Assembly: GCA_003003615.1 (NCBI GenBank)
Contig: PVWD01000039.1
Coordinates: forward strand, 1 to 32,097
Direction of reading: 5' to 3'
DNA length: 32,097 nt
Origin: a filamentous cyanobacterium CCP2
GTDB lineage: Bacteria; Cyanobacteriota; Cyanobacteriia; Elainellales; Elainellaceae
In this document: in pieces, positions 109-26,049 of the stretch
Layout: every line of letters starts with the position of its first letter
Numbering within the stretch: position 1 is the stretch's first letter
Notes under the pieces: generated by a model
The model's input: the letters and a program-made list of their open reading frames with translations, nothing else
Database searches by the model: none
What the model was told of the DNA's origin: nothing
Program-made: the position numbers and the translations under genes

Positions 109-1477
109 TAATCCAATCATGATGAGCAACCGCGACCAGGAATCCTCTGGATTCGCATGGTGGTCTGGTAATGCTCGTTTAATAAATCTATCCGGTAAAT
201 TATTGGGTGCCCACGTCGCCCATGCTGGTTTAATCGTTTTCTGGGCAGGAGCAATGACCCTATTTGAGGTCGCTCACTTTGTTCCTGAAAAGCCCATGTA
301 CGAACAGGGACTCATTTTGCTGCCTCACCTGGCAACGCTGGGTTGGGGTGTAGGCCCTGGTGGTGAAGTGATCAATACATTCCCATACTTTGTAGTGGGT
401 GTACTTCACCTGATTTCCTCTGCTGTCCTTGGTTTGGGCGGTATTTATCACGCCATTCGCGGCCCTGAAACGTTGGAAGAGTATTCCAGTTTCTTTGGCT
501 ACGACTGGAAAGATAAGAACCAGATGACCAACATCATTGGATACCACCTGATCATTCTCGGTATTGGTGCGTTCCTGTTGGTCTTTAAAGCCATGTTTTT
601 CGGCGGTGTCTATGACACTTGGGCTCCGGGCGGTGGTGATGTTCGTGTGATCAACAACCCCACACTTAACCCGGTTGTAATTTTTGGTTACTTGCTCAAG
701 GCTCCATTTGGCGGTGAAGGCTGGATCATCAGCGTCAACAACATGGAGGACATCATTGGTGGACACATCTGGGTTGGCTTTATCTGCATTGCGGGTGGCA
801 TCTGGCACATTCTGACCAAGCCGTTTGGTTGGGTGCGCCGAGCCTTCATCTGGTCGGGTGAAGCATACCTTTCCTATAGCTTGGGTGCGCTGTCCCTGAT
901 GGGCTTCATCGCATCGATCATGGTGTGGTACAACAACACCGCTTACCCAAGTGAGTTTTACGGCCCAACCGGCCCTGAAGCATCTCAAGCTCAAGCCTTG
1001 ACCTTCTTGATTCGTGACCAGCGTTTGGGTGCAAACGTCGGTTCGGCTCAAGGCCCGACCGGTTTGGGTAAGTACCTGATGCGTTCTCCAACTGGCGAAA
1101 TCATCTTCGGTGGTGAAACCATGCGCTTCTGGGATTTCCAGGGACCTTGGTTGGAGCCTCTCCGTGGACCGAATGGTTTAGACTTGGACAAGGTTAAGAA
1201 TGATATTCAACCTTGGCAGGCACGTCGGGCAGCTGAGTACATGACTCATGCTCCTCTTGGTTCTCTAAACTCGGTAGGTGGCGTGGCAACTGAGATCAAC
1301 TCGGTGAACTTTGTTTCTCCCCGTGCGTGGTTAGCAACATCTCACTTCGTGCTTGGTTTCTTCTTCTTGGTGGGTCACTTGTGGCATGCAGGTCGCGCTC
1401 GTGCAGCGGCGGCTGGCTTCGAGAAGGGAATCGATCGCGAGAATGAACCTGTATTGGCGATGCCTGACATTGACTAA
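92..1477 (+). CDS. psbC: Photosystem II CP43 core antenna protein
   Basis: Encodes CP43, the inner antenna chlorophyll-protein of photosystem II, 461 residues with six membrane helices and a large lumenal loop. The GTG at 92 is chosen as start because it gives the usual N-terminus [15 protein letters not shown] and has a GAAGAGG ribosome-binding site at 76-82. An upstream in-frame ATG at 14 lies inside psbD and is unlikely. CP43 features include paired His residues in the helices (for example [33 protein letters not shown]) and the lumenal segment [14 protein letters not shown], whose Glu and Arg are known in the family to contact the manganese cluster. The length is normal. It overlaps psbD by 17 bases and is followed by a strong terminator at 1516-1545, so the operon ends here. 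Confidence 0.98.
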
Positions 1478-12181: not shown

Positions 12182-12385
12182 ATGGCACAGCGGACTCGGT
12201 TGGGAGAAATTCTTAGACCCCTAAACTCTGAATACGGTAAGGTGGCTCCTGGTTGGGGAACTACGCCTCTAATGGCAGTCTTCATGGGGCTGTTCCTTGT
12301 CTTTTTGCTCATCATTTTACAAATCTACAACTCTTCCCTCATTTTGGAAGGTGTCAATGTAGATTGGTCGAGCCTCGGTGGCTAA
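12182..12385 (+). CDS. psbH: Photosystem II protein H
   Basis: A 67-residue low-molecular-weight subunit of photosystem II with one membrane helix (about residues 28-49, [20 protein letters not shown]). The N-terminal part ([22 protein letters not shown]) faces the stroma/cytoplasm, and the short lumenal tail ends VDWSSLGG. It lies near CP47 and helps bicarbonate and quinone-site stability. The length is typical of cyanobacteria, which lack the extra phosphorylated plant extension. It is divergent from psbN and followed by a strong terminator, so it is probably transcribed alone. Confidence 0.98.
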
Positions 12386-24923: not shown

Positions 24924-25949
24924 TTAGCTAAACGCAGTGCGAATCACTCTTTCGCCAGGATTACGATCGACTGCTGATTTTCCTAAATCTCGTACCACAA
25001 ACGATCGTTGCAGCCAGCGATCGAATCCGTCGTAGCGAGGGGTAAAAGACGATCGACCATGTACGGTGCGGCGATTGTCAATACAAAGCAGATCCCCTGT
25101 ATCCAACTTGACGCTTTGATAAACTGACGAAATTGCTGCTTGCAGGGCCTCAAGGGCTGCTTTCGCATCTGGCGTGATTGCTTCCATTAAATCTTCGTCG
25201 TAATTCAGGAATGGATCATTCCGGTTGCCATGCAGCACAGGTAAAACTGGCCCATTGCCTTTAACGGTGTGGAGATTGCCAAAGGAGTAATCAATTCCAG
25301 TTTGGTAGAGCGGTTGAAACAATAGTTCTCGATGTTGCTCTGAAATGAGCGGCAAGGCATGGGTAATGCTGGCATAGGTGGTTTCTGCTCTGCGATCGTG
25401 GTCAGGGCGCAGGCAAAAAAGCAGCAAATATTCTGGGGCGTAGGGATGAAAAACGGTTTCTCGGTGAAACTGGAGCCGTGTCTTGGAACCGCCCGAAGAC
25501 TGAATTTGTTCTTGCTCTTTGACCGGAGCTAAATTCTGAAATAAATCACCGTTTTTTTCCTGAATATAGGACACTAGATGTCCGAGCCGACTACCAATCA
25601 TCGCTAAACAGCGTTCACTGACATAGGTTTTTTTCTCTTCAGATCGTTGGGCATTGGGTGGCGTATGAACGTGGTAAAGACCTGGATCGATCGGCAATCC
25701 GCGCAGCAGCAAAATTCCGTCTGGATTGGCCCGCACCTGAAACTCTAACAAGGCTCGTCGAACGAAACGCGGCATTTCATCGGCCCGCATTTCACAATCA
25801 AACAAAAATTCTTCTGTATCAATGTAAGGATTTGTGCCAGGAGCAAGGAACAAGTCCATGGTTGCCTCGTCAAACGATCGACAATCAACCGATCGACAAT
25901 CAACGCCCTGCATTCCTGGGGAGACTGACCTCGCGTGAAGATGTTGCAT
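24924..25949 (-). CDS. Clavaminate-synthase-like Fe(II)/2-oxoglutarate oxygenase (TauD/TfdA family)
   Basis: A 341-residue soluble oxygenase. The iron ligands are His162 and Glu164 in the motif LQFHRETVFHPYAPEYLLLF and distal His297 in CIDNRRTVHGRSSF. Arg311, fourteen residues further (RYDGFDRWLQRSF), would hold 2-oxoglutarate, the spacing seen in VioC and related enzymes. The HxE (not HxD) motif with FHPYxPEYLLLFCLRPD is close to amino-acid hydroxylases acting on free Arg, Lys or Asn (VioC/AsnO/KDO type), so a free amino acid or peptide may be the substrate; this is inferred. The ATG at 25949 is preferred over the one six bases earlier because AGGAG is spaced correctly only for it. Near the N-terminus a 15-bp tandem copy repeats Val-Asp-Cys-Arg-Ser. 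No biosynthetic partner is adjacent. Confidence 0.85.
   Translation of the reverse strand: MQHLHARSVSPGMQGVDCRSVDCRSFDEATMDLFLAPGTNPYIDTEEFLFDCEMRADEMPRFVRRALLEFQVRANPDGILLLRGLPIDPGLYHVHTPPNAQRSEEKKTYVSERCLAMIGSRLGHLVSYIQEKNGDLFQNLAPVKEQEQIQSSGGSKTRLQFHRETVFHPYAPEYLLLFCLRPDHDRRAETTYASITHALPLISEQHRELLFQPLYQTGIDYSFGNLHTVKGNGPVLPVLHGNRNDPFLNYDEDLMEAITPDAKAALEALQAAISSVYQSVKLDTGDLLCIDNRRTVHGRSSFTPRYDGFDRWLQRSFVVRDLGKSAVDRNPGERVIRTAFS
25875..25904. repeat. Perfect 15-bp tandem duplication in the oxygenase N-terminus
   Basis: CGATCGACAATCAAC occurs twice head to tail. It is in frame and gives two copies of VDCRS, outside the conserved domain. Each copy starts with a CGATCG hexamer. Confidence 0.9.
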
Positions 25950-26049
25950 TGCCATCTCCTTTGAAGATTCTGATGAAGATTCTGATTATTTCTACAGATA
26001 TTGATGGAGATATTTAAGATGACAAGTATCCGCTAATACCAGATTAACA

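Follow-up and report, generated by a model that had tools for sequence, protein, structure and literature searches.

We describe a clavaminate-synthase-like (CSL) enzyme of the filamentous cyanobacterium CCP2 that probably acts as a stand-alone hydroxylase, most likely adding a hydroxyl group to C3 (beta) of L-lysine or L-arginine and yielding a product that would be released free, outside any linked nonribosomal peptide synthetase (NRPS) pathway. The window, i.e., the whole stretch of DNA analyzed, comprises 32,097 nucleotides and carries the gene on its minus strand.

A mechanical ORF call places a 343-codon reading frame for the hydroxylase at 24924-25955, minus strand. The second ATG at 25949 is probably the true start, because AAAGGAG lies 6 nt ahead of it and several orthologues open with Met-Gln when their translations are compared. 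Residue numbering follows the 343-aa ORF throughout.

24924..25949, minus strand: hydroxylase gene from the second ATG, 341 aa (start at 25955 in the mechanical call)
25956..25962, minus strand: RBS-like AAAGGAG, 6 nt upstream of that ATG, read from the sequence

No TauD-family match other than the hydroxylase gene was found in the own genome, whose assembly spans 6.95 Mb across 528 contigs. NG86 dN against four close orthologues amounts to 0.094-0.111 with dS saturated (~3-4 or not computable), and the gene is under purifying selection where it is retained. A perfect 15-bp tandem duplication at 25875-25904 (minus strand) in the 5' part of the gene yields VDCRS-VDCRS, a stretch that is single-copy in the orthologue translations compared. 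Upstream of 11 of 16 hydroxylase genes from the window's family (f1) we observed a -10-like TARGMT, against 2.4 ± 1.4 (maximum 7) in 200 shuffles, for a pattern that was picked by eye after the sequences had been viewed and is absent from the window's own gene; GTAN8TAC occurs in 6/20 hydroxylase upstream regions at scattered positions. An Rfam scan revealed no family close to the hydroxylase gene. Elsewhere in the window, the scan matched IsrR, the antisense RNA regulating isiA in cyanobacteria (506-692, minus strand, RF01419, 170.9 bits), and the Plastid-psbN 5'UTR (12223-12283, minus strand, 54.3 bits, gathering score 50).

The window protein is firmly assigned as an intact CSL Fe(II)/2-oxoglutarate oxygenase, because profile matches, matches to the sequences of solved structures and the predicted fold agree. 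Only three NCBIfam models match above 30 bits, and all are amino-acid CSL equivalogs, each scoring below its cut-off: clavaminate synthase (CAS1) NF043003 with 231.5 bits (cut-off 450, 51%), GntD enduracididine beta-hydroxylase NF041363 with 212.6 bits (cut-off 345, 62%) and VioC arginine beta-hydroxylase TIGR03946 with 160 bits (cut-off 418.6, 38%). In a phmmer search against the sequences of solved structures, CAS1 (1.1e-51) ranked before AsnO (9.8e-51), CS3, KDO1 (4.5e-41) and 6daw (NapI), followed by the OrfP/VioC/CmnC group. The AlphaFold model, built from a 24-row alignment, has a mean pLDDT of 87.8 and a pTM of 0.88, with lid residues 223-228 below a pLDDT of 50. Its comparison with structures by Foldseek and VIA gave AsnO as the best match (Z 41.1), with CAS at Z 39.3, KDO1 at Z 38.8 and the desaturase NapI at Z 37.7. 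Rows 1-43 of the listing are all CSL enzymes with Z 32.8-41.1 over 295-320 residues, and the next family listed, Gab/GlaH, follows at Z 22.6.

The protein also matches Pfam TauD with 63.7 bits (cut-off 27), which would suit an enzyme of the wider TauD superfamily that acts on taurine, another sulfonate (both considered in the preliminary description) or some other non-amino-acid substrate. We regard such an enzyme as extremely improbable, however, given the exclusively amino-acid CSL equivalogs in NCBIfam, the gap in Z score behind the CSL structures and the retention of residues that contact the amine and carboxylate of amino-acid substrates. The tree was built without a TauD sequence; among the 50 structural matches listed there is no TauD row.

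For the phylogenetic analysis 55 sequences were gathered, from which L081, L082, L022 and L094 were dropped to give a 51-row tree; KDO5 is absent from it. All 20 cyanobacterial rows cluster together (100/100), and their clade joins KDO1, the Erwinia piriflorinigrans protein L036 and CAS1/CS3/L076 at 99/98. Two further clades stand apart, one of VioC/OrfP/CmnC/NapI/GntD type (99/98) and one with AsnO (100/99). The joining of the clades persists without KDO1 or without L036 (SH-aLRT 94 and 96) in two quick check trees that also dropped L077-L080, L093 and L044. Within the wider group KDO1 clusters with L036 (89/67) and CAS (88/73), an order that is weak and accompanied by long branches. The cyanobacterial branch thus corresponds to none of the named enzymes. 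The comparison with characterized Arg, Lys and Asn hydroxylases proposed in the preliminary description accordingly places the protein in the KDO1/L036/CAS group, and the suggested membership of the VioC/AsnO/KDO-type CSL family is borne out by sequence, AlphaFold model and tree alike. KDO1 and CAS, the characterized members of this group, act on basic or arginine-derived side chains. A CSL-like oxygenase gene also occurs in Actinomycetia phage DSL-LC01 (L094 3881-4699, 36% identity across 58% of the query), and a CSL oxygenase is encoded on a Pantoea stewartii plasmid beside an aminoacyl-tRNA-ligase-related protein (L093 2747-4735).

Residues of the active site were placed by aligning the protein to eight solved enzymes and 46 further relatives.

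25554..25559, minus strand: Glu133-Lys134, occupying P2 (amine contact) and P3 in the published logo of the active site (alignment; positions per PMC6224419)
25494..25496, minus strand: Ser154, equivalent to KDO1 Ser168 and VioC Ser158 (alignment)
25458..25466, minus strand: His164-Arg165-Glu166, HxE iron motif (alignment)
25284..25292, minus strand: Asp222-x-Ser224 of the lid, equivalent to KDO1 Asp234 and Ser236 (alignment)
25191..25199, minus strand: Asp253-x-Asp255, side-chain sub-pocket (KDO1 Asp268; VioC Asp268/Asp270; alignment)
25059..25061, minus strand: distal His299, iron ligand (alignment)
25005..25019, minus strand: Arg313 (His+14, 2-oxoglutarate) to Arg317 (His+18, substrate carboxylate), roles from KDO1 Arg328 and Arg332

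The HxE motif and the arginine fourteen residues after the distal histidine, both noted earlier from the letters, correspond to HRE at 164-166, His299 and Arg313. According to PMC6224419, Arg at P19 together with Glu or Gln at P2 constitutes the CSL head-group rule, and enzymes for positively charged side chains are expected to carry Asp at P12 and P15 (DXXD 3D motif). The window protein has Arg317 at P19 (His+18), Glu133 at P2 and, as judged from the sequence alignment and not from coordinates of the model, Asp222 and Asp253 at P12 and P15. KDO1, the L-lysine 3-hydroxylase of Catenulispora acidiphila (PDB 6f2a), binds the epsilon-amine of lysine through Asp234 and Asp268 (PMC6224419). All lysine contacts reported there are kept: Ser154, Glu166, Asp222, Ser224, Asp253 and Arg317 are equivalent to KDO1 Ser168, Glu180, Asp234, Ser236, Asp268 and Arg332. 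In CmnC and VioC, the L-arginine 3-hydroxylases of capreomycin and viomycin, L-arginine is fixed by Ser138/Ser158 and Asp249/Asp270 (PMC9513391), the equivalents of Ser154 and Asp255.

One 13-residue pocket signature is common to the window protein, 19/19 tabulated near-orthologues (the split gene of G028 was left out of the table) and Erwinia L036, and it is found in 0/34 other rows. KDO1 departs from the signature at P3 only and VioC at P2 and P3 only; the CmnC row of the alignment is a triple mutant, for which the wild-type Leu, Ser and Asp were taken from PMC9513391. Besides sharing 12/13 signature residues, KDO1 resembles the window protein in fold and in its short lid (34 residues against 31), but identity is only ~35%, P3 is Gly instead of Lys and the iron motif reads HTE instead of HRE. 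Erwinia L036, 40% identical by tblastn, likewise has HTE; among the aligned HxE rows, an Arg between the iron ligands is confined to the cyanobacterial branch. VioC agrees in Ser154, Asp222/Ser224, Asp253/Asp255 and the catalytic residues, whereas VioC and CmnC differ in their separate clade, in Gln at both P2 and P3, in the lid of 46 residues (VioC) and, for VioC, in the low score of its model. AsnO, an asparagine oxygenase, is the best structural match and has Glu-Lys at P2/P3, but its lid carries Pro-x-Ser in place of Asp-x-Ser, Asn replaces Ser154 and Ala replaces Asp255. The clavaminate synthases CAS1/CS3 provide the best sequence match (CAS1) and an equally short lid of 31 residues, yet CAS differs at P2/P3 (Leu/Arg), 154 (Glu), 224 (Ala) and 255 (Glu).

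As KDO1, VioC and CmnC use the Asp/Ser lid and the Asp-x-Asp to bind basic side chains, a basic L-amino acid and beta-hydroxylation are predicted. The pocket data do not separate lysine from arginine, because the KDO1-like short lid also occurs in CAS and one CAS substrate, deoxyguanidinoproclavaminic acid, carries a guanidino group (title of structure 6vwr). In the reaction we propose, His164, Glu166 and His299 would coordinate the iron and Thr192 and Arg313 would hold 2-oxoglutarate, while Arg317 with Ser154 would bind the carboxylate and Glu133/Glu166 the amine of the substrate. On closure of the lid, Asp222, Asp253 and Asp255 would clasp the cationic end. The enzyme would act alone and release the hydroxy-amino acid free, not as the precursor for a linked nonribosomal pathway. 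We infer these residue roles from alignment with solved enzymes; substrate, position and free product are likewise predicted.

Two residues speak against C3. Lys134 makes P3 basic, and in KDO5 an Arg at P3 is tied to C4 hydroxylation (PMC6224419). Two positions before Ser154, Gln152 matches Gln142 of OrfP, the dihydroxy-arginine producer, where VioC and CmnC have Leu, although KDO1 has Gln here too. Neither residue being VioC-like, the enzyme could act on a basic amino acid or derivative by C4 or double hydroxylation, by desaturation as in NapI, itself a close structural match, or by oxidative cyclization as in CAS, which falls into the same tree group; homoarginine or another guanidino acid is also conceivable as substrate, as CmnC and VioC accept arginine analogues (PMC9513391). 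We consider this range of chemistries rather unlikely. Ser154 and Asp255 are shared with the C3 mono-hydroxylases KDO1, VioC and CmnC, whereas OrfP has Gly and Tyr at these Ser/Asp positions (PMC9513391) and KDO5 has Gly, and CAS-like chemistry is at odds with the Leu/Arg/Glu of CAS at P2/P3/154 and its Ala in place of the lid Ser. C3 hydroxylation of lysine or arginine is therefore retained as the preferred reading.

VioC and CmnC genes belong to NRPS clusters. To examine the surroundings of the cyanobacterial gene, ORFs around 21 loci were clustered; besides the hydroxylase itself, whose cluster takes in the distant paralogue in L071, no cluster is common to more than 4 loci, and a long syntenic block is common only to the window and L053 (G002). 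For 19 loci including the window, the closest ORF of ~110 codons or more to either side of the gene was scanned with Pfam (37 ORFs, one locus being single-sided). These flanking ORFs are mostly locus-specific, with DPBB (window, L053) and DUF1350 (L066, L067) as recurring pairs and an APH-family phosphotransferase at L064; no amino-acid activation enzyme, PLP enzyme or amino-acid exporter was found among the 37. The hydroxylase is a stand-alone gene without conserved partner genes.

Condensation domains were not found in 9/20 orthologue genomes, the own genome aside (G002, G008, G012, G013, G024, G039, G063, G076 and G099). Three of these (G002, G008, G039) are single-contig genomes, and four of the nine are all the genomes of family f5 with an intact hydroxylase gene. 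The description of the gene as alone in the window therefore extends to its relatives, and the varied neighbors together with the condensation-free genomes favor the free hydroxy-amino acid suggested there over a feed into an NRPS, in line with the LysE-type neighbor in Erwinia described below.

The remaining 11/20 genomes contain condensation domains (one partial match in G010), and the hydroxylase might hydroxylate an amino acid for a nonribosomal peptide encoded elsewhere in the genome. A two-gene NRPS sits on C477, another contig of the own genome; in G007 a stretch of ~1.1 kb containing a 220-codon oxidoreductase-like ORF separates the hydroxylase from the end of a two-gene NRPS, the two lying tail to tail; and CSL relatives of S. 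atratus and Lentzea adjoin NRPS genes. Against this stand the nine genomes lacking condensation domains and the location of a similar NRPS ~180 kb away in G019 and on another contig in G009, and we judge such a distant supply improbable. Across the 20 genomes, only G007 has a condensation domain no more than 100 kb from the hydroxylase on one contig, although several contigs are short (G024, G028 and G030 below 8 kb). By eye, the two-gene NRPS recurs in similar form in the own genome (L085 1-6164, on C477), G007, G019 and G009 (L084 1329-10561, L086 4408-13154 and L087 2-9093). Adjoining the NRPS of G007, small ORFs with similar starts (MNTMQHESLFTELTAEQAAIVEGG) lie by a 735-codon putative peptidase-containing transporter ORF (L084 12820-17464), by eye a RiPP- or bacteriocin-like locus.

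Lysine and arginine are among the amino acids exported by LysE-type proteins. In Erwinia piriflorinigrans (L036) a LysE-type translocator gene (PF01810, 6.9e-29) directly follows the hydroxylase gene on the same strand. Its mechanical ORF, with a TTG start, overlaps the end of the hydroxylase, and the first ATG lies 14 bp past the stop codon. By analogy, this pairing fits a free product. Among 149 sampled genomes of the Erwinia family the only close match is that of the L036 genome itself; 7 of the other 148 match at 21-34% identity.

Dependence on an exporter was also considered for the cyanobacteria and rejected, as LysE-family genes occur in 29/36 relatives, with and without the hydroxylase. 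G039 has the hydroxylase and no LysE-family gene was found in it, and no exporter adjoins the cyanobacterial hydroxylase genes examined. An extra argininosuccinate synthase as partner, an idea from a Sulfobacillus plasmid, was discarded too, since the 36 relatives show no hydroxylase-linked pattern; the scores of their argininosuccinate synthase matches form two classes (~227-245 and 122-134 bits), which suggests two distinct ArgG types among close relatives. On the Sulfobacillus plasmid pY0017 (L072 6637-8888) and a Streptomyces plasmid (L088 4908-7278), a CSL oxygenase adjoins an argininosuccinate-synthase-domain protein. These oxygenases, sister rows in the tree (98/93), have an AsnO-like neutral pocket, and oxygenase plus neighbor may represent a conserved two-gene cassette, present in two phyla.

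Close orthologues of the window protein occur in named records including Elainella saxicola, Oculatella and Leptolyngbya strains. A hydroxylase match was found in 18/60 genomes of the relatives search, own genome counted, and in 32/388 genomes sampled from the class; the latter comprise 21 with a near-orthologue (the own genome and 20 others at 69-87% identity), one with a remnant and 10 with distant relatives only. The near-orthologues fall into two families, f1 and f5 (Synechococcus sp. M44_DOE_062 type), the latter of hot-spring origin. Within f1 the gene is present in 16/35 other genomes and missing from 19/35. In G028 it is split across two frames and may be broken or reflect an assembly fault. 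The hydroxylase gene is patchy and dispensable. In G120 (f5), two hydroxylase gene fragments are left at the syntenic site (L070 8912-9206), i.e., decay in place.

The tree nests four f5 rows inside f1 (95/93), and in an AU test f1 as a single clade is not rejected (p 0.17), for a clade that was named after the tree had been seen. Identity to the window falls from 68-77% (f1) to 63-64% (f5) for TrpD, with G010 and G012 excluded for having only weak TrpD-like matches, and from 76-87% to 74-78%, a smaller fall, for the hydroxylase; G028 (pieces at 69-70%) is excluded. These data point toward a likely horizontal passage of the hydroxylase between f1 and f5.

Characterized CSL enzymes such as VioC, CmnC, OrfP, AsnO and CAS come from antibiotic pathways. 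Our literature searches found no study of the cyanobacterial CSL branch, which is apparently an uncharacterized, NRPS-independent branch of a known enzyme kind. With more reserve, we put forward a fuller reading, possible but far from assured, in which some filamentous and some Synechococcus-type cyanobacteria would rely on a dedicated NRPS-independent enzyme whose end product is a free 3-hydroxylated basic amino acid, its gene being a single-gene unit passed between distant cyanobacterial lineages; the end product could then serve as a solute, a signal or an exported antimetabolite. The pocket of the window protein probes published regioselectivity rules, with Lys at P3 predicting C4 and Ser154 with Asp255 predicting C3, and the Thermostichus-like orthologues might provide robust biocatalysts. 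If the branch is indeed a conserved single-gene branch in cyanobacteria, with condensation domains absent from several of the genomes, a free hydroxylated basic amino acid would itself count as a metabolite there.
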